Part shown: one piece after another, positions 14,511 to 30,776 of the stretch
Layout of the letters: each line of letters opens with the position of its first letter
How positions within the stretch are numbered: the first letter of the stretch is position 1
NCBI GenBank assembly: GCA_023150875.1
Contig: JAKLKC010000064.1
Span: forward strand, 1-34,864
DNA: 34,864 nt
DNA from: Myxococcota bacterium
GTDB taxonomy: Bacteria; Myxococcota_A; UBA796; UBA9615; JAKLKC01
Direction of reading: 5' to 3'
Position numbers and translations under genes: made by a program
The notes under the pieces: model-generated
The model's input: only the letters and a program-made list of their open reading frames with translations
Database searches by the model: none
What the model was told of the DNA's origin: nothing

Positions 14511-16997
14511 TCAGCCCGGAGCCGTCCCCCGGAGGTCCATCCCGTCCCCCGGACCCCCGCCGTCCAGCATGCGGAGCACCGCCCGGGCGACGTCCTTCCC
14601 CCGCTCGCTCACCTCCCCCACGGGCCCCACGCAGCCGGGGCAGCCCGACTCGCAGCCGCAGGCGTCCACCAACGCCCGGGTGCGCGCCACGAGGTCGGCG
14701 TGCCGCTCGAAGAGCCGCGAGGCGAAGCCGACGCCGCCCGGGAAGCTGTCGTAGAGGAACACCGTGGGATCGAAACGGTCGAGGCGTTCCACGTCCACCG
14801 GGCGCCCCGCCTCCGGGACCGAGTACACCCCCCGGCCGTCCTGGTCGAGCCGGGCGTACCACGCGGCCTGCTGGTCGCCCATGGAGCGGGAGACGTCCCG
14901 GACGTCCGCCAGCAGGATCGTCGCCGCCATGTGCTGCATCGCGTAGGCGACGCCCAGCAGGCCGTCCACCAGCTCCAACCGGGGGAAACCCAGGCGGGCG
15001 GCCGCGGGGCCCGGGATCGTCAACCAGTACGAGGTCGTGTGGGTCTCGACGTCGGGGAGCTGCACGTCGCCGAAGCCGACGTTCTCGGAGGTGTAGAGCT
15101 TGATCTTCTTGTAGCCCACCACCCGGCTGGCGACGTGGACCTCGCCGTGGCCCCGCACGCAGCCGGGTGACGGCGCCTCGTCGAAGCGGTCCAGGATCTG
15201 GACCCGGGTGTAGTCGAGGGCGTCGGTGTAGTAGTCGACGTCCACCTGGTGGACGAACGCCTCGTGCCGCTCCCAGTCCAGGCGGTCGACGTGGTACTGC
15301 ACGCCCTCGACCATGTGGATCGCGCCCTGGTGCAGGAGGGTCTGGGCCGAGACCAGGTCGCACTCGGCGATGATCCGCGGGGTTCCCGACGTGGAGTCGA
15401 TCACCACCACGTTCTCCTGGTTCACCGAGCGGATGTTCACGCCGTCCGCCGGGTAGCTCTCGTCGGAGTAGTGCCAGTGCCCCGCCTCGAGGTGGACGAC
15501 GCCCTGGTCCTCCAGGAAGCGCATGATCTCGGCGGTGTCGGGGCCACCGAAGCGCTCGTCCTGCTGTACGGGGACCTCGTAGGCGGCGCACCTCAGGTGG
15601 GAGACCAGCACCGAGAGGTTGTCGGGATCGATCCGCGCGTGCTCGGCGGCACGGCCGAAGAACCACTCGGGGTTCTGAACCACGAACTGGTCCAGGGGGG
15701 TGGAGGAAGCGATGTACACCGCCGCCGAGGGGGCGAGGCGCCGGCCCGCCCTGCCGATCCGCTGCCACGTCGACGCCACCGAGCCCGGGTAGCCGGCGAG
15801 GACGACGGCGTCGAGCTGGCCGATGTCGACCCCCAGCTCCAGGGCGTTGGTGGAGACCACCCCCACCACCCTCCCCTCCCGGATCCCCGCCTCCACCTCC
15901 CGTCGCGTGCCGGGCAGGTATCCGCCCCGGTACCCGGCGATGCGGTGCTCCTCGCCGGGGCGGCGGCAGAAGCGGTCCTTCAGGTAGCGGGTGAGGACCT
16001 CGACCTGGGTGCGGCCCTGGCAGAACACCAGGGTCGGCACGTCCCTCTCGATGAACAGCGTGGCGATCCGCCGGGCCTGGGAGATCGCCCCGGCGCGGAT
16101 CCCCAGGCGCGGGTCCACCACCGGCGGGTTGTAGAAGAAGAAGTGCTTCCGCCCCCGGGGCGATCCGTCCTCGTCGGCGGAGATCTCGTCGACCTCCTTC
16201 CCGAACAGGCCCTCCGCCAGCTCCTTGGGGTTGGCGATGGTGGCGGAACAGCCCACGAAGACCGGGTCGGAGCCGTGGAAGCGGCAGATCCGGCGCAGGC
16301 GCCGCAGCACGTTGGCGACGTGGGACCCGAACACCCCGCGATACCCGTGCAGCTCGTCGACGACGACCCAACCCAGGTGGCGGAACAGCCGCTGCCACCG
16401 CGGGTGGTTGGGCAGGACGCCGCCGTGGAGCATGTCGGGGTTGCTCACCACCACGTGCCCAAGGCGACGCACCGCCTGGCGGGCGTCCGAGGGCGTGTCG
16501 CCGTCGTAGGTGAACGTCTTGATGTCGGCGCCGAGGCCGTCGATCAGCCGGTTCAACCCCTGCATCTGGTCCTGGGCGAGGGCCTTGGTGGGGAACAGGT
16601 AGAGGGCGCGCCGCTCGGGATCATCGAGGATCCCCTGGAGGATCGGCAGGTTGTAGCAGAGGGTCTTCCCCGACGCGGTCGGCGTGACCACCACCGTGTC
16701 CCTCCCCCGCCGCACCCGGTCCGCCGCCAGCGCCTGGTGCCGGTACAGGCGCTCGATCCCTCGCCCCCGCAGCGCCGCGCGCATCCGCTCGCCCACCCAG
16801 TCGGGGAACTCGGCGTAACGGGCCTCCCTCGCCTCGATCACCCGGTGGGCGGTGAGCTCGCCGCGGACGTCCGCCCCCCCGGCGAGGCGTTCCAGGGCCC
16901 GCCCCAGGGGGGACGCCGGAGGTCCGGCCGCCGGTGGGACCGGGACGGGCACGGGCGCCTCGGGGGCGTCGGGAACGGGACGTTCTGGGGAGGACAT
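14511..16997 (-). CDS. mrfA: MrfA/YprA-like DEAD/DEAH-box helicase with C-terminal zinc-binding domain
   Basis: An 828-residue superfamily 2 helicase of the YprA/Hrq1 type. In Bacillus subtilis MrfA is a 3'-5' DNA helicase that repairs mitomycin-C adducts with MrfB. Visible motifs are Walker A TPTASGKT (105-112, Lys111), DELH (214-217), SAT (251-253), a C-terminal RecA lobe with VSTNALELGVDIGQLDAVV, and motif VI QRIGRAGRR. The DUF1998-type C-terminus has the four-cysteine cluster CGCESGCPGC (Cys780, 782, 786, 789), expected to bind a metal. The N-terminal ~35 residues are Pro-rich and not conserved. The ATG at 16997 is used; it diverges from an alpha/beta hydrolase gene 109 bp away. The mrfB gene follows within 3 nt. 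Confidence 0.9.
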   Translation of the reverse strand: MSSPERPVPDAPEAPVPVPVPPAAGPPASPLGRALERLAGGADVRGELTAHRVIEAREARYAEFPDWVGERMRAALRGRGIERLYRHQALAADRVRRGRDTVVVTPTASGKTLCYNLPILQGILDDPERRALYLFPTKALAQDQMQGLNRLIDGLGADIKTFTYDGDTPSDARQAVRRLGHVVVSNPDMLHGGVLPNHPRWQRLFRHLGWVVVDELHGYRGVFGSHVANVLRRLRRICRFHGSDPVFVGCSATIANPKELAEGLFGKEVDEISADEDGSPRGRKHFFFYNPPVVDPRLGIRAGAISQARRIATLFIERDVPTLVFCQGRTQVEVLTRYLKDRFCRRPGEEHRIAGYRGGYLPGTRREVEAGIREGRVVGVVSTNALELGVDIGQLDAVVLAGYPGSVASTWQRIGRAGRRLAPSAAVYIASSTPLDQFVVQNPEWFFGRAAEHARIDPDNLSVLVSHLRCAAYEVPVQQDERFGGPDTAEIMRFLEDQGVVHLEAGHWHYSDESYPADGVNIRSVNQENVVVIDSTSGTPRIIAECDLVSAQTLLHQGAIHMVEGVQYHVDRLDWERHEAFVHQVDVDYYTDALDYTRVQILDRFDEAPSPGCVRGHGEVHVASRVVGYKKIKLYTSENVGFGDVQLPDVETHTTSYWLTIPGPAAARLGFPRLELVDGLLGVAYAMQHMAATILLADVRDVSRSMGDQQAAWYARLDQDGRGVYSVPEAGRPVDVERLDRFDPTVFLYDSFPGGVGFASRLFERHADLVARTRALVDACGCESGCPGCVGPVGEVSERGKDVARAVLRMLDGGGPGDGMDLRGTAPG

Positions 16998-19593: not shown

Positions 19594-21294
19594 TCACGCG
19601 GGGGCGCGGCCGGGCCTCCCCTTCGGTCCCTCCTTGATCTTCTGGACCAGGGCCCGCATCTCCTCGACCCGCAGCGCCAGCGCCGCGGCGACGTAGGCCA
19701 GCGCCATCGCCCCCCCCGAGGCGGCCAGCTTCACCATCTGGAGCGCCTTCCCCGGCGCCTCGAAGGAGGCCGGGAGAAGTCGCAGGACGGCCCACCCCGC
19801 CGCCGCCGCGGCCGCGGTGGCTAGGGAGATCCGCAGCAGCGCCGGCCAGGTGGAGGGCGTCAGGGGGCCGATCCGGGACCGGAGCAGCAGGAGCAGCACC
19901 ACCGCCTCGCCGTTCACGGCGATGGCCGAGGCCAGGGGGAGCGCGTAGTAGGGTTCGGCCCAGGTCAGCGCCCCGAAGGGGGCCAGCAGTGCCCACACCA
20001 GCCCCGCCTTGGCGGCGATGGTGAGCAGGGTCAGCAGCATCGGCCTCAGGCTGTCCCCGAGGGCGTAGAAGATCGGCAGCAGGATCCGCGGGTAGGAGTA
20101 ACCCATCAGGCCCAGGGCGTACAGCGCGAGCACCCAACCGGTGCGGCTGGCGTCCTCGGGCCCGAAGCGCCCCTGCATGTAGAAGAACTGCGCCAGCGGC
20201 TCCCTCAGCACGACGAAGGCGGCGGCGGCGGGGAGGGACAGGAAACCCAGGAGCACCACGGACTGGGAGACGGTGCGCCTCAGCCCCTCGGAGTCCCCGT
20301 CCGCCACGTCGCGGCTCGCCACCGCCAGGGTGGAGGTCGCCAGGGCCATGGCGACGATCCCGATGGGGAAGAGGATCAGGCGGAAGGCGTAGTCGATGTA
20401 GGCGACGGCCCCGGTCCAGCGGGACGCCACCTGGACGTCGATGAGGTTGGTGAGGGAGACCCCCGCGAGGCCGATCACGCCCGGGACCATCAGGCGGACC
20501 ACCCGCCGCAGGCCGGGGTGGGCGAAGTCGAAGCGGGGCCAGAAGCGGAATCCCAGGCGCCGCGCGGCGGGGAGCATCGCCGCGAGCTGCGCGACGCCGC
20601 CCAGGGTGAAGCCGATCCCCACGGCGAGGATGGCGGGCTGCCCCGTGGCCCGGGCGAAGGGCTCGGCCAGCAGGCAGGACAGCACCCCCACCACGTTGAA
20701 CAGCGCCGGGGCGATGGCGGGCAGGAAGAACCGGCCCCGGACGTTCAGCGTGCCGGCGACGACCGCGGACAGGGACGCCAGCAACAGGAAGGGCCCCGCC
20801 ACCTGGGTCAGGCGGGTCGCCAGGCGGAGCTGCTCGGGGTCGTCGGCGAAACCCCCGGCGAAGAGCAGGATCCAACGCTCCCCGAAGACCACGAGGGAGA
20901 GGACGATGGCGCCGACCACCACCAGCAGGAAGCCGATCACCGCCTGGGCGAGGGCCACCGCCGCCTTCGCCCCCTGGTTGCGGTCGTACTCGGTGAAATT
21001 GGGGACGAAGGCGGCGGTCAGGGAGCCCTCGGCGAAGAGGTCCCTCAGGATGTTGGGGATCCGCAGCGCCACCCCCAGGGCGTCCCGGGCCGCGCCGGCC
21101 CCGAAGTAGTAGGCGAGGGCGGCCTCGCGCACGAGGCCGAGCACGCGGGTGAGCAGCCCGGCGAGGCCGACGGCTGCGGCGCCCCGGACGACCTCGCCGC
21201 CGGCGGCATCGGGGGGGCCTCCCCGGGCCGGGGAAGGGCCGGGAGGGGGGCTGCGATCGTCGCGGACGGCGGCCGCCTTCGGGATCTTCTTCAT
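19594..21294 (-). CDS. murJ: Lipid II flippase MurJ
   Basis: A 566-residue polytopic inner-membrane protein of the MVF/MurJ family, which translocates lipid-linked peptidoglycan precursor to the periplasmic side. After ~35 polar residues, the family N-terminus is clear: LLTRVLGLVREAALAYYFGA and RIPNILRDLFAEGSLTAAFV. A dozen or more membrane helices follow, with IDYAFRLILFPIGIVAMALA and LREPLAQFFYMQGRF as further family landmarks. Conserved arginines in the first helices are retained. The last helices are followed by a short cytoplasmic tail ending VQKIKEGPKGRPGRAPA. The ATG at 21294 lies only 7 nt beyond the end of dispersed element copy B, so its upstream region is made of the repeat. The next gene on the strand (SRPBCC) has its own candidate promoter. 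Confidence 0.94.
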   Translation of the reverse strand: MKKIPKAAAVRDDRSPPPGPSPARGGPPDAAGGEVVRGAAAVGLAGLLTRVLGLVREAALAYYFGAGAARDALGVALRIPNILRDLFAEGSLTAAFVPNFTEYDRNQGAKAAVALAQAVIGFLLVVVGAIVLSLVVFGERWILLFAGGFADDPEQLRLATRLTQVAGPFLLLASLSAVVAGTLNVRGRFFLPAIAPALFNVVGVLSCLLAEPFARATGQPAILAVGIGFTLGGVAQLAAMLPAARRLGFRFWPRFDFAHPGLRRVVRLMVPGVIGLAGVSLTNLIDVQVASRWTGAVAYIDYAFRLILFPIGIVAMALATSTLAVASRDVADGDSEGLRRTVSQSVVLLGFLSLPAAAAFVVLREPLAQFFYMQGRFGPEDASRTGWVLALYALGLMGYSYPRILLPIFYALGDSLRPMLLTLLTIAAKAGLVWALLAPFGALTWAEPYYALPLASAIAVNGEAVVLLLLLRSRIGPLTPSTWPALLRISLATAAAAAAGWAVLRLLPASFEAPGKALQMVKLAASGGAMALAYVAAALALRVEEMRALVQKIKEGPKGRPGRAPA

Positions 21295-24476: not shown

Positions 24477-24493
24477 CTGTAAACAATTTACAG
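24477..24493. promoter_or_regulatory. AT-rich palindrome, possible operator
   Basis: CTGTAAACAATTTACAG: perfect 7-bp arms around CAA. AT-rich dyads are rare in this genome, so it looks like a repressor site. It lies 62 bp after the SDR stop and 225 bp before the -35 of the fusion gene. No T tract follows, so a terminator is less likely. Confidence 0.45.
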
Positions 24494-24701
24494 GCGGGTG
24501 TTCGTATGTCCGTCCCCCGCCGAACGCTTCGGGGCGCCCGCCCCGCCGCCCGCCAGAGACCGACGCCGCGCCACCCCATCCACGCTGACAGTGCGCTACA
24601 ACACCAACAAAAACAAGCACATACGACCATGCGCCGAATGCGGCAACAACTACCATGCGCCAATGCTGGCGTACCATGTGGGATTTTTCCGGCGTCCTGT
24701 G

Positions 24702-24731
24702 TTGACGGTCTTTACCAGGGCCCGGTACTTT
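24702..24731 (+). promoter_or_regulatory. Candidate promoter of the MraZ-ParB fusion gene
   Basis: TTGACG (24702-24707), an 18-bp spacer and TACTTT (24726-24731). The predicted start is near 24738, so the ATG at 24736 would not be on the transcript. This supports the GTG at 24793 as the real start, with a leader of about 55 nt. Confidence 0.55.
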
Positions 24732-24792
24732 TCCCATGCCGGGTGGCCGTCCCCAGGAAGGGCGGCCCGGAGCGGCCGAGGAGGATCCCGAC

Positions 24793-25932
24793 GTGGGCAA
24801 GCTCAACAGGCGCGTGAAGTTCATCGCGAAGGAGCGGCGGCTGAGCATCCCCGCCGAGTTCCTCCACGAGCACTCCATCCAGCGGGGGGACGCGATCCAC
24901 CTCGCCGCCCGGGGCAACACCCTCTTCGCCTTCCCGGTCCGGTCCTGGGAGGGGTACCAGGGCCTCGCCCGGCAGCTCGGGCGGTGGTTCCCCGACGACC
25001 GGCACCCCTTCTTCGCCCTCTTCGATGACGCGGCGCGGGTCACCCTGGGGAGCCAGGACCGGGTGGTGCTCCCCAGGGACTTCCCTTTCCACCCCAAGGA
25101 GACCATCCGCCTCCACTGGGAGATGGTGGACGGCTTCCTCCACCTCGAGGCCGAGAACGGGCGGGAGCCGGAGGCCCCTCCCCTCGCCCGCGGACCGGGC
25201 CAGACGAGCCTGATGGACTTCCTGCCCACCCCCGCCCCCTCGCCGGCGGCCCGGCCCACCTTCGATCGCCGCGCCGCCGAGCGGTCCCTGACCGAACGTG
25301 TGCCCATCGAGGCCGTCGACTTCCGGGACCGGACCTTCGCCGAGAAGACCCCGATCCCCACGGACTCCCTGGTGCGCTCGGTGCGCCTGGAGGGGATCCG
25401 CCGTCCCCTGGTGCTGCTGGCCCGGGACGACGGGACCTACCAGGTCATCGACGGGTTCCGGCGCCTGGCCGCGGCGCGCCAGCTCAAGGTCGCCCAGGTC
25501 CCCGCCGTCGTCTGGCGCGGCCTCGACTTCGACGCCTGCCTGCGCCTGAAGCTCCTCGAGGCCACCGAGGAGACCTCGGAGGCCCCCACCCTCCGGCGCC
25601 TGCGCTCCACCCTGAAGCTCCACGAGGGGCAGGTGGACCTCCAGGAGATCGAGAAGATCACCGGTCGGCGCAAGCGGACCCTCCAGCGGTACCTGCGGGT
25701 GGCCGCCGATCCCCTCCTCCGGGAGGCCATCGAGAAGGGGCGCCTCTCCATCTTCAAGGCCGAGGAGATCCTGAAGGCCGGCGTCGATCCCGAGACCGCC
25801 CTGCGAAAGCGGATGACCGTGAAGGAGATCCGCGCCCAGTCCCACCGCCCCGCCCCGTCCCGCCGCGCCCGCCGCCGCTCCGTGACCCCCCGCCGACGCG
25901 GCGGCCGGGGGTCGTCGACCATCCCCGGCTGA
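24793..25932 (+). CDS. MraZ/AbrB-like domain fused to a ParB-type DNA-binding protein
   Basis: A 379-residue protein with an unusual domain order. Residues ~8-120 resemble MraZ, with two AbrB-like halves: RRVKFIAKERRLSIPAEF and ARVTLGSQDRVVLPRDF, joined by a helix (SWEGYQGLARQLGRWF). Residues ~166-245 form a ParB/Srx-like domain: ERVPIEAVDFRDRTF, EGIRRPLVLL, and the box VIDGFRRLAAAR (218-229). A central helix-turn-helix-like region (~265-335) follows, with IEKITGRRKRTLQRYLRVA and EAIEKGRLSIFKAEEI. The C-terminus is strongly basic (SRRARRRSVTPRRRGGRG). The GTG at 24793 has GAGGAGGA 7-8 nt upstream; an ATG at 24736 is the alternative. No ParA gene is adjacent. Function is inferred as sequence-specific DNA binding, in transcription or chromosome organisation. 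Confidence 0.82.
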   Translation: MGKLNRRVKFIAKERRLSIPAEFLHEHSIQRGDAIHLAARGNTLFAFPVRSWEGYQGLARQLGRWFPDDRHPFFALFDDAARVTLGSQDRVVLPRDFPFHPKETIRLHWEMVDGFLHLEAENGREPEAPPLARGPGQTSLMDFLPTPAPSPAARPTFDRRAAERSLTERVPIEAVDFRDRTFAEKTPIPTDSLVRSVRLEGIRRPLVLLARDDGTYQVIDGFRRLAAARQLKVAQVPAVVWRGLDFDACLRLKLLEATEETSEAPTLRRLRSTLKLHEGQVDLQEIEKITGRRKRTLQRYLRVAADPLLREAIEKGRLSIFKAEEILKAGVDPETALRKRMTVKEIRAQSHRPAPSRRARRRSVTPRRRGGRGSSTIPG

Positions 25933-26038: not shown

Positions 26039-26077
26039 GGGTTTTCCACATCCTGTGGATAACCCTGCTTGTCCACA
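26039..26077. promoter_or_regulatory. Cluster of three DnaA boxes
   Basis: TTTTCCACA (26042-26050) and TGTGGATAA (26054-26062, the exact complement of the consensus TTATCCACA) form a 12-bp inverted pair with one mismatch around TCC (GGGTTTTCCACA / TGTGGATAACCC). A third box, TTGTCCACA (26069-26077), has one mismatch. CCTGTGGA and TCCACAGG can also pair. The cluster lies between the stops of the ParB fusion gene and coaD, 107 bp past the former. DnaA binding is inferred from the consensus. Confidence 0.65.
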
Positions 26078-27306: not shown

Positions 27307-30300
27307 TCATCCCCTCCGCCGGTGGGCGGCGGCGAGGAGGGCGAGGGCGATCCAGGCCACCGTGGCCCGCTCCGCCCGCTGGGGGGTCGCGTCGCAGCCG
27401 CAGCCTTCGGGCGCGGCCGCACCGCCGCCGCCGCCGCAGTCCGAGTCTACGCCGTCGAGCTTGCTGTCGCAGTCGTTGTCCACCATGTCGTCGCACAGCT
27501 CACCCGCCGCCGGCGAGACCGCGGCGTTGGTGTCGTCGCAGTCCTGGCCTCCCGCGGCGGATCCACCCCAGCCGTCCCCGTCCACGTCCGTCAGGTCGAC
27601 GCCGTCGCAGTCCTCGTCGCTCCCGTTGTAGGGGACCTCGTAGGCCCCCGGGTGGACCTCCGCGTCGTTGTCGTTGCAGTCCGCGTCCAGGCAGGTGTCG
27701 TACCCGTCGCCGTCCCGGTCCTGGGGGTGCTCGTTCGGGTTGTTGGGATTGGTGCCGCAGGCGGTCTCGTCGTCGTCGGACCAGCCGTCGCCGTCGGAGT
27801 CCGCCGGAGCCTCCAGCTCGTCGCAGATCCCGTTGGCGTCGGTGTCGGTGGGGAGGTCGGCCGGGTTCCCGGGGTCCGTGCCGCACTCCACCTCGTCCGC
27901 GTCCGTCCATCCGTCCCCGTCGTCGTCGTCGTCCTGGTCGTTGCACACGCCGTCCCCGTCGGGATCCCCCGAGGGGTTGGCGCCGTCGCACAGATCGGTG
28001 GCGTCACAGATCCCGTCCCCGTCGAGGTCCTCGCCGTCGTCCAGGGGGTCGTCGGAACCGGATCCCGAGCAGTCGTCGCAGCCGTCGTTGTCCGAGTCGT
28101 TGCACGCGAAGGGATCGGTGTCGTCGGAGTCGTCCTGGCAGGCGTGGGCCGGCCAGGTCGGGTCCCCGGCTCCGTCGCCGTCGGCGTCGAAGCAGGCGTC
28201 GCCCGCGTCGCACACGCCGTCCAGGTCGAGGTCCTCGTCGAGGTTCCCGTCCCCGGGCGTGCCCGCGTCGCCGCAGCCGGCGGGGATGGGCGCGGTGCTG
28301 GGGCACCAGGCCGCCGGGGAGTCGTTCCCCGCCGCGTCGGTGCCCGGGGCGGCCGCCAGGCTGCGCCCGTCGGAGAAGGGCCAGCCCGCGGCCACGTCCC
28401 ACGCCACGCCGTCCACGAGGACGCCGGAGGGGTCCAGGACCTCCACCGAGCCCGCGCCGTCGGCGAGGGAGAGGCCGCTCCACTCCGCATCGCAGGTCAC
28501 GCCTCCGTTGGCGGCGGGACGGTCGTCGGCGCAGACCACGACGCTGCCCCCTGCCGGGAGGGTCAGGTCCCCGGAGATCGTCCAGGTCGCGCCGGTCTGG
28601 ATGCGGATGCTCCAGTAGGACAGCAGCAGGTCGTCCACCCGGTTCGAGGTCAGCTCGAGCCACTCCCCTTGGACCGACGAGGAGCAGCCGGGGCGGAGCA
28701 TCATCTCCGTGACCACGACGTCCCCGGCGACCGCGGGCGAGCCCTCGAAGAGGCACGCCTCCGAGCAGCCGTCCCCGGAGACCGTCCCGCCGTCGTCGCA
28801 GTCCTCGCCCGGGGCGACCTCGCCGTCGCCGCAGACCGTCGCGTCGTTGGCGTCGCAGGTGCCGTCCCCGTCCGCGTCCGCGGGTACGGACAGGGGATCG
28901 CGGGGATCGGTGCCGCAGGACGCCTCCAGCACGTCGCTCCAGAGGTCGTCGTCGTCGTCGTCGTCCAGGTTGTCGCAGGTCCCGTCGAGGTCCGTGTCCC
29001 CGCTGGCGTCCAAGCCTTCGCAGGCGTCCAGGGCGTCGCAGAGCCCGTCCCCGTCGCCGTCCCCAGGGACCGAGAAGGGGTCGCCGGAGTCGGTGCCGCA
29101 GGTCGCCTCCTCCGGGTCGGTCCACCCATCGTCGTCGTCGTCGGAGTCCAGGTTGTCGCAGGTCCCGTCGAGGTCCGTGTCCCCGCTGGCGTCCAGGCCG
29201 TCGCAGGCGTCCAGGGCGTCGCACGTCCCATCGGAGTCCGTGTCGTCGGGGACCGAGAGGACGTCGTCGGGATCGGCCCCGCAGCTCGCCTCGGCGACGT
29301 CGCTCCACCCGTCGTCGTCATCGTCGCCGTCGAGGTTGTCGCAGATCCCGTCCAGGTCGACGTCGCCGCTGGCGTCCAGGCCGTAGCAGGTGTCCAGCGC
29401 GTCGCACACGCCGTCGGCGTCCTCGTCGCCGGGGACCGAGGCGCCCGCGTCGGGATCGGTCCCGCAGGTCGCCTCGGCGAGGTCGGACCACCCGTCCCCG
29501 TCGTCGTCGGGGTCCAGGTTGTCGCAGGTCCCGTCCAGGTCCGCGTCTCCGCTGGAGTCCAGGCCGTCGCAGAGGTCCCCCGCGTCGCAGAGTCCGTCTC
29601 CGTCGGCGTCCGGACCGTCCGCACGGGGGTCGTCGACGCCGGAGGCGCAGTCGTCGCATCCGTCGGCGTCCGCGTCGTGGCAGACGAAGGGATCGGAGTC
29701 GTCGGTGTCCGCCCGGCATGCCCCGGGCACCAGCGCCGTGCCCGACAGGTCCCCGTCGGCGTCGATGCACTCGTCGGTGGCGTCGCAGACCCCGTCCCCG
29801 TCCCGGTCGACGTCGGCGTTGGCGAAGCCGGGGCTCCCGAGGTCGCCACAGCCCCCCGGGATGGGATCGAGGGACGCGCACCAGGCCGCCGCGGCGTCGT
29901 TCGAGGCGGCGTCGTGGGCGGAATCCCGGAGGGCGAAGGAGGCGGCGGGAGCGATGGGCCACGGGCCCCCGGTCCACGAGACCTCGTCGACCAGGTCACC
30001 GGACCCGTCGAGCATCGAGATCCGGTCGGTGGAGTCGAGGAAGGGGCCGGGGAAGGTGTGGTCGCACGCCACTCCCCCGTTGAGCAGGGGATCGGCGTCG
30101 CCGCAGAGCACCACCCGCGCGCCGGGGGCCACGTAGACGCCGGAGATCTCCGTGGACTCGCCCCCGCTCACCGCCTGCCATCCCGTCAGGTCGACGGTGC
30201 TGGCGGTGGCGTTGTAGACCTCGAACCACTCGCCGCGGGCGTCGTCGCTGCAGCTCGGCGCGAGCATCACCTCGGAGATCACCAGGTCGCCCACCCCCGC

Positions 30301-30375
30301 CGCCGCGACGGCCGGCGACAGCGTGGCCGCCGCGCACGCGCCGACACGACAAGCGAACCATCCGAACCGCGCCAT
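27307..30375 (-). CDS. Large surface protein: two lamin-tail domains, thrombospondin-3 repeats, MYXO-CTERM
   Basis: A 1022-residue secreted protein. A signal peptide (~1-26) is followed by a lamin-tail domain (~28-150: GDLVISEVMLAP, GEWFEVYNATASTVDLTGW). Calcium-binding type thrombospondin-3 repeats follow (~185-510), including four tandem 61-residue copies (263-506) with the core GLDASGDTDLDGTCDNLD. A DUF4215/'myxococcus cysteine-rich' motif (VCGDGEVAPGEDCDDGG, ~515-543) leads to a second lamin-tail domain (~550-665), more type-3 repeats (~710-890) and MopE-like CNDNDAEVHPG/CDDTNAAVSP repeats (~900-970). The end is GCGCDATP, the helix VAWIALALLAAA and HRRRG. The first module (~28-262) and the second (~548-795) are recognisable duplicates. 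The ATG at 30375 precedes the signal peptide. Anchoring at the surface through MYXO-CTERM processing is inferred. Confidence 0.88.
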   Translation of the reverse strand: MARFGWFACRVGACAAATLSPAVAAAGVGDLVISEVMLAPSCSDDARGEWFEVYNATASTVDLTGWQAVSGGESTEISGVYVAPGARVVLCGDADPLLNGGVACDHTFPGPFLDSTDRISMLDGSGDLVDEVSWTGGPWPIAPAASFALRDSAHDAASNDAAAAWCASLDPIPGGCGDLGSPGFANADVDRDGDGVCDATDECIDADGDLSGTALVPGACRADTDDSDPFVCHDADADGCDDCASGVDDPRADGPDADGDGLCDAGDLCDGLDSSGDADLDGTCDNLDPDDDGDGWSDLAEATCGTDPDAGASVPGDEDADGVCDALDTCYGLDASGDVDLDGICDNLDGDDDDDGWSDVAEASCGADPDDVLSVPDDTDSDGTCDALDACDGLDASGDTDLDGTCDNLDSDDDDDGWTDPEEATCGTDSGDPFSVPGDGDGDGLCDALDACEGLDASGDTDLDGTCDNLDDDDDDDLWSDVLEASCGTDPRDPLSVPADADGDGTCDANDATVCGDGEVAPGEDCDDGGTVSGDGCSEACLFEGSPAVAGDVVVTEMMLRPGCSSSVQGEWLELTSNRVDDLLLSYWSIRIQTGATWTISGDLTLPAGGSVVVCADDRPAANGGVTCDAEWSGLSLADGAGSVEVLDPSGVLVDGVAWDVAAGWPFSDGRSLAAAPGTDAAGNDSPAAWCPSTAPIPAGCGDAGTPGDGNLDEDLDLDGVCDAGDACFDADGDGAGDPTWPAHACQDDSDDTDPFACNDSDNDGCDDCSGSGSDDPLDDGEDLDGDGICDATDLCDGANPSGDPDGDGVCNDQDDDDDGDGWTDADEVECGTDPGNPADLPTDTDANGICDELEAPADSDGDGWSDDDETACGTNPNNPNEHPQDRDGDGYDTCLDADCNDNDAEVHPGAYEVPYNGSDEDCDGVDLTDVDGDGWGGSAAGGQDCDDTNAAVSPAAGELCDDMVDNDCDSKLDGVDSDCGGGGGAAAPEGCGCDATPQRAERATVAWIALALLAAAHRRRG
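28858..29589 (-). repeat. Four in-frame 183-bp tandem repeats within the lamin-tail gene
   Basis: These encode four consecutive 61-residue units starting at residues 263, 324, 385 and 446, each Cys-Asp-Ala-(Leu/Gly)-Asp then ...GLDASGD...DGTCDNLD...CGTDP...SVP. Their DNA is similar enough to suggest recent expansion. Confidence 0.8.
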
Positions 30376-30776
30376 TCGCGCCTCCCGCTGGCGGCCGGGT
30401 GCCCGGATGGTGTCGATCCCTCGACCGGTCCGCCGTCGCTCCGACACCAAGGCTAGCACAGCTCCGCGCCCCCGCGCGACGGCCGGCGCCGCCGGGCGTC
30501 AGGCCGCCCTTGACCGTGGCGGCCCCACGAAGGAAACTGCGGCGGCGGAAGGGTCCCGCCCCGGACCGGGGGGGGCCGGGCCCCATGAGGGGGCCGGGGT
30601 CGGCGACGGCCCCGCTGGGGCCGGAGGCCGATCCCGTTCCGCCGCCCCGAGAACGCCGTGGCCCGTTGCGCTTCGGAGGGAAAGTGGAGGGAGCTGGGTT
30701 CCGGCGGCCTGCGCCGGCCATCGCCCCCCCCGCTCGCCGCACCGACGCCCCGCCTGCCCTCATGAGGAGGCTCCCC
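30376..30776. other. Divergent intergenic region between the two large surface-protein genes
   Basis: A 401-bp region with no convincing gene. On the plus strand, TTGACC (30510-30515), a 17-bp spacer and GAAACT (30533-30538) is a weak promoter candidate for the MopE-repeat gene; it would leave a leader of about 230 nt. On the minus strand, TGCTAGCCT near 30459-30451 could be an extended -10 for the lamin-tail gene. Nothing else was recognised. Confidence 0.4.

Follow-up and report, generated by a model that had tools for sequence, protein, structure and literature searches.

Can a single gene join MraZ, a ring-forming regulator of cell division, and ParB, a clamp protein of the chromosome, both very widespread and intensively studied, and what would such a chimera do in the cell? 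The question is raised by a 34,864-nt stretch of a Myxococcota bacterium genome (contig JAKLKC010000064.1; hereafter the window), in which a first-pass annotation had read the open reading frame at 24793-25932 as two MraZ-type AbrB halves followed by a ParB/Srx-like domain and a helix-turn-helix (HTH), and had proposed a DNA-binding protein linking cell-cycle transcription to chromosome organisation. The reading frame is indeed present, with the motifs RRLSIPAEF and QDRVVLPRDF occupying residues 15-23 and 88-97 of its product, and it encodes a genuine, evolutionarily conserved chimera in which a complete double-AbrB domain of the MraZ type is joined to an orphan ParB-type module. The latter consists of a ParB_N fold and a Noc/ParB HTH and lacks both the ParA motif and the ParB dimerisation domain (Table 1).

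Table 1. Coordinates of the fusion gene, the domains of its product and the neighbouring sequence elements in the window
Feature	Position	Strand	Basis
MraZ–ParB fusion gene, 379 aa, GTG start	24793..25932	+	M1-G2 invariance, dN/dS
MraZ-like two-repeat domain, residues 1–122	24793..25158	+	hhalign with controls; structure match to 1n0e
First AbrB/MraZ half, residues 1–48; DxxxR Arg kept (R16), Asp lost (A12)	24793..24936	+	alignment, hhalign, predicted structure
Second AbrB/MraZ half, residues 81–122; R90 kept, Asp lost (G86)	25033..25158	+	alignment, hhalign, predicted structure
Low-confidence linker, residues 123–158	25159..25266	+	pLDDT <50 across 123–157
ParB_N / ParB-CTPase fold, residues 159–256; box II GFRR, box III lost	25267..25560	+	PF02195, PadC match, motif alignment
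ParB/Noc-type HTH region, residues 265–338	25585..25806	+	structure match to 6y93; 45/74 invariant
Basic tail, without ParB C-terminal dimerisation domain	25843..25929	+	homologue alignment, ParB motif comparison
Palindrome CTGTAAACAATTTACAG, with similar sequences in G004 and G001	24477..24493		
Half-site GTATGT	24504..24509		full ACATACNNGTATGT palindrome in G001
Half-site ACATAC	24619..24624		
Distal box TACCAT, upstream of the proximal box; CCA-to-CCA distance 62 bp	24651..24656	+	spacing in 7/7 genomes
Third TACCAT box in the window	24672..24677	+	upstream comparison, shuffles
Promoter TTGACG-18-TACTTT	24702..24731	+	predicted from sequence, upstream comparison
Proximal box TTACCA, in the spacer from -35 to -10, identical in 7/7 genomes	24712..24717	+	
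Three DnaA-type boxes: TTTTCCACA (+), TTATCCACA (-), TTGTCCACA (+)	26042..26077		starts 26042, 26054, 26069

A misassembly, the danger named beforehand for such a junction, can be rejected. The gene is carried by 7/7 genomes examined from the order, the six besides the window's own all encoding full-length orthologues that are 53–57% identical to the window protein; these genomes come from different sequencing projects, and the surroundings are syntenic as far as contigs reach, coaD and rsmD flanking the gene to one side and shared genes to the opposite side. One further full-length homologue (31% identity) was found in G008, a genome from another family of the class, where the reading frame is intact and in-frame TGA/TAG codons fall 3' of its stop. 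No fusion was detected in 63 other genomes of the class at an E-value of 1e-20, and across the phylum sample further matches span the ParB part only. An origin from a phage or another mobile element was likewise rejected: phage collections gave no match, viral contigs no confirmed relative and plasmids two matches to the ParB part only, so that no full-length relative is found in these collections. On the sequence comparisons, the gene is vertically inherited at one conserved locus; it is single-copy in the order except for a partial paralogue in G005, and dN/dS is ~0.19–0.28 in three pairs of relatives, with dS near saturation. Its order-wide occurrence at one conserved locus, single copy number and purifying selection argue for a stable cellular role.

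The GTG at 24793 is the likely start, over a competing in-frame ATG at 24736, because the M1-G2 pair matching this GTG is invariant in the alignment of 8/8 homologues and the -10 element ends at 24731. Among the seven orthologues, invariant positions amount to 28/48 in the first MraZ repeat and 45/74 in the HTH, compared with 29/98 in the nucleotide fold; judged by this alignment, the two DNA-binding modules are the best-conserved regions of the fusion and the nucleotide fold is the weaker one.

When the family profile was searched against PDB sequences, the ParB half alone gave a match; recognising the MraZ half took profile-profile and fold comparison. Single-sequence matches to MraZ profiles stayed below curated cut-offs, for TIGR00242 against the window protein (E 0.01, 15.8 bits, cut-off 98.35) as well as for the homologues against Pfam (MraZ, E 0.0015; MazE, E 9.5e-4; best score 18.9 with a cut-off of 23). 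In contrast, comparison of the family profile with an alignment of MraZ proteins from the same class was positive (hhalign probability 97.2%, E 4e-11), and controls gave at most 5.1% (E 0.0077) for 60 column-shuffled MraZ profiles, 0.5% for a reversed profile and 0.3% for the ParB half against the MraZ profile. The predicted structure, with pLDDT mostly 70–90 over this domain, consists of a strand–strand–helix–strand–strand unit joined through two helices to a further group of strands. It matches the full two-repeat fold of solved MraZ structures, covering nearly the entire protein in 1n0e (Z 11.4, 126 residues, rmsd 3.2) and scoring similarly with 9qlg (Z 11.2; 126-127 residues across both), and a Foldseek match to MraZ was obtained at E 1.9e-4; MraZ is also the top structural match of the G008 homologue (Z 13.3). 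The two AbrB halves originally proposed are thus confirmed by profile and by structure, the comparisons named beforehand as able to refute them. In E. coli MraZ, the Arg of the DxxxR motif contacts DNA. This Arg is invariant in both repeats of the fusion (R16, R90) and the Asp is replaced throughout the order (A12, G86), the G008 homologue retaining it in its second repeat; the missing Asp in both repeats across the order renders DNA binding by the MraZ half uncertain.

For the ParB half, which spans the ParB_N fold and the HTH at residues 159–350, the domain assignment of the first-pass annotation could be verified directly, as the protein passes the Pfam threshold for PF02195 (ParB_N; E 6e-8, 33.1 bits, cut-off 26.3) and its structure matches PadC (Z 13.3), Myxococcus xanthus ParB (Z 11.9) and Noc (Z 11.2). 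The family profile matched that of 27 true ParB proteins from the phylum with 99.1% probability, and residues 263–357 match the DNA-binding domain of Noc in complex with its site (6y93) with Z 8.8 over 95 aa. The ParA-binding motif LG-R/K-GL is absent from 8/8 homologues in the motif alignment, CTP box II reads GFRR, GFHR or GWRR instead of GERR, and box III (ENxxR) is unconserved. Beyond the HTH the protein ends in a basic tail, in which no C-terminal dimerisation domain was found. No parA gene adjoins the fusion gene in the neighbourhoods of the window and of the relatives' loci, in agreement with the initial description of a gene standing without ParA, and TGTTTCACGTGAAACA, the canonical parS (the site of the fusion's HTH may differ), was not found with up to three mismatches in the window or in the orthologue loci examined. 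By these motifs the fusion is not a canonical ParB, being devoid of the ParA motif, the dimerisation domain, GERR and ENLQR.

The gene has its own predicted promoter, in an intergenic region that is AT-rich relative to the window (67% GC vs 71-77%), and both features had been correctly noted at the outset. Upstream regions from seven genomes share the element TTGAC-N5-TTACCA, which occurs once per genome in five of them and twice in the other two, the extra copies lying in other sequence contexts. Two CCA boxes keep a spacing of 62–63 bp in 7/7 genomes, a number that 3000 dinucleotide shuffles, which ignore relatedness, did not reach (at most 5/7), and TACCAT, ACATAC and TTTACAG are enriched relative to shuffles. 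The palindrome ACATACNNGTATGT is found in G001 upstream of the fusion gene only, with near-full copies in G002–G004 and, in the window, two separated half-sites. A regulon search found TTGACN5TTACCA and ACATACNNGTATGT to be essentially confined to the fusion promoter, so that no wider regulon can be deduced, and a different regulator could be the one that uses the promoter boxes.

What, then, would the protein do? It is probably a self-regulating, multi-subunit DNA-binding protein and not a chromosome-segregation clamp. The most likely specific reading, to which we give about an even chance, is an autoregulatory, oligomeric regulator that loops or bridges DNA, has few other targets and uses MraZ in place of the ParB dimerisation domain. 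The MraZ part would act as the assembly module that the missing ParB C-terminal domain otherwise provides and would read short box elements, while the ParB HTH would read a second site; one oligomer would thus hold at least two DNA segments. The ParB_N fold may, going by its motifs, still bind nucleotide via GxRR, but a canonical CTP-hydrolysing clamp is unlikely. The main site would be the gene's own promoter, where TTACCA sits between the -35 and -10 elements and another CCA is found six turns of the helix further upstream. The two boxes, on one helix face, represent the best candidate site; an autoregulatory looping or bridging role would follow from this choice of main site. Known MraZ proteins form octamer-type rings, and the MraZ domain of the fusion may assemble in the same way. 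Autoregulation by a ring would parallel the MraZ of Mycoplasma genitalium, which regulates itself and whose only chromosomal motif lies at its own promoter (PMC8475190), and the octameric toroid thought to bind MraZ repeats (PMC7761207). Of the function proposed in the first-pass annotation, the DNA-binding part is well supported by the conservation of both modules. The proposed coupling of cell-cycle transcription to chromosome organisation stays conjectural: the protein has degraded CTP boxes (II and III) and neither the ParA motif nor the C-terminal domain that closes the clamp, the stretches examined contain no canonical parS, the promoter has no MraZ-type triple repeat, and two relatives have their oriC at dnaA.

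An orphan ParB-type clamp or nucleoid organiser resembling Noc or KorB, driven by nucleotide to slide from an adjacent cis site and using the MraZ ring as a gate or bridge, appears unlikely, although several observations speak for it. The best structural matches of the ParB half are ParB, Noc, PadC and KorB, both GxRR arginines are kept in 7/8 homologues, and the ACATACNNGTATGT palindrome of G001 is unique to the region upstream of the fusion gene. Moreover, the main text of a 2025 survey of ParB-fold proteins describes orphan folds in which box III is often absent or divergent and some of which still bind CTP, ATP or GTP (PMC12704722). The same text reports that 17/28 purified ParB-fold proteins bound no nucleotide in vitro and that nucleotide specificity is not predictable from sequence (PMC12704722). 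Against a clamp stand the absence of the C-terminal clamp domain, the loss of the GERR Glu and of box III, the one orthologue with GFHR, and a nucleotide fold that is less conserved than the DNA-binding parts.

The protein could also be a second MraZ-type regulator of the dcw genes (division and cell wall), its ParB part contributing affinity only. We consider this improbable, even though the MraZ fold is a true one and murJ lies ~3.5 kb upstream (lipid II flippase MurJ, window 19594-21294, minus strand). The window's genome already has a true MraZ elsewhere (G000:C113), as it has a true ParB (C125), and this normal mraZ has triple-repeat boxes of its own and is followed by a methyltransferase-like gene in the mraW position, whereas the fusion gene is not in the dcw cluster and its product has lost the DxxxR Asp in the order. 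True mraZ promoters of the order carry three GTGGG-type direct repeats with ~10-bp spacing (L039, L060, L061, L065, L069), the repeats upstream of mraZ in the window's genome being of the TGGATC type. No such 10-bp triple repeats occur at the fusion promoter, and the fusion's promoter elements are not present at mraZ. The fusion promoter is thus not a classic MraZ operator, and an MraZ-like specificity is not conserved.

The DnaA boxes claimed just downstream of the gene are present; there are three, packed within 36 bp between the convergent 3' ends of the fusion gene and coaD. Perfect copies of TTATCCACA number three in the whole 6.9-Mb genome, one of them at the fusion locus, and the 182-kb contig with dnaA has two boxes within one mismatch. 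In three other genomes of the order boxes also occur near the fusion gene, but upstream of it. The AT-rich DNA and the DnaA boxes suggested an oriC at this locus; in G002 and G003, however, dnaA is where the GC skew switches sign, and the fusion locus is therefore not the main origin of either. No origin-like skew change is seen around the gene in the window or in G003:C217. Judging from their sequence, the boxes are putative binding sites that may link the locus to DnaA, and they may constitute a DnaA-titration or regulatory site. A more elaborate scheme has them tie expression or loading of the protein to replication, while a multivalent MraZ–ParB ring bridges a unique cis site to further sites on the chromosome and thereby coordinates division-gene regulation and chromosome organisation, acting neither as a ParABS clamp nor as an MraZ repressor; we accord it a small chance.

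Two loci connect the ParB module with Ser/Thr kinase–FGE proteins. At G005:C80 (L053:15-4208), a 1398-aa ORF combines a metallophosphoesterase, a Ser/Thr kinase, a ParB-like half and an FGE-sulfatase domain; its ParB-like half has 52% identity to that of the fusion, a near-identical HTH and no MraZ part, and a TIR-like stretch, seen by eye only, lies between phosphoesterase and kinase. The second link comes from G008:C29 (L052:1037-3912), where a Ser/Thr kinase–FGE gene follows the distant homologue on the same strand at a distance of 210 bp. That the fusion belongs to a signalling or conflict system using such proteins is nonetheless very unlikely, as no kinase–FGE gene was found next to any of the order's seven orthologues, among whose conserved neighbours are coaD and rsmD. 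An AbrB/MazE-like antitoxin with a ParB-like accessory region is scarcely credible: one homologue does match MazE_antitoxin (E 9.5e-4), but no toxin-sized conserved partner gene is present and the structure matches full MraZ, inter-repeat helices included.

Compared with known systems, the fusion shares with MraZ (PF02381, TIGR00242; 1n0e, 9qlg, 9r4j, 9sz7) the full double-AbrB fold, the inter-repeat helices and the DxxxR Arg in both repeats; it departs from MraZ in its ParB module, its location outside the dcw cluster, its promoter without 10-bp GTGGG repeats and the DxxxR Asp, lost in the order and kept in the second repeat of the G008 homologue. With chromosomal ParB (Myxococcus xanthus 7bnr/7bnk, Bacillus subtilis Spo0J 6sdk) it has in common a ParB_N fold followed by a ParB HTH, in the same order, whereas LGRGL, ENLQR, the C-terminal dimerisation domain and a ParA neighbour are missing and GERR is replaced by GFRR. 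Like Noc, KorB, PadC and the fusions of the 2025 survey (PMC12704722), it is a ParB fold outside parAB, and it is also joined to another domain. Since it lacks defining features of MraZ and others of canonical ParB, the fusion is best placed in neither family but among the orphan ParB-fold proteins, as a novel variant. The early statement that no described protein joins MraZ and ParB holds for the literature searched, in which few papers carry both names and none reports such a fusion in its title or abstract, and AbrB/MraZ is not named as a partner in the main text of the 2025 survey (PMC12704722). Pfam-based surveys would miss the fusion because its MraZ half scores under the cut-off. Whether a ring-forming DNA-binding domain can stand in for the dimerisation domain of ParB, and what role the ParB fold has once its CTP motifs decay, are questions for which the protein is a natural experiment.

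Two further genes of the window deserve mention. An MrfA/HRQ1-type helicase (14511-16997, minus strand) is encoded, like MurJ, a few kb upstream of the fusion gene and also nearby in G002, G003 and G005. Adjoining rsmD, positions 27307-30459 (minus strand) encode a large secreted-type protein that is rich in Asp/Gly repeats and has a C-terminal tail resembling a membrane anchor.
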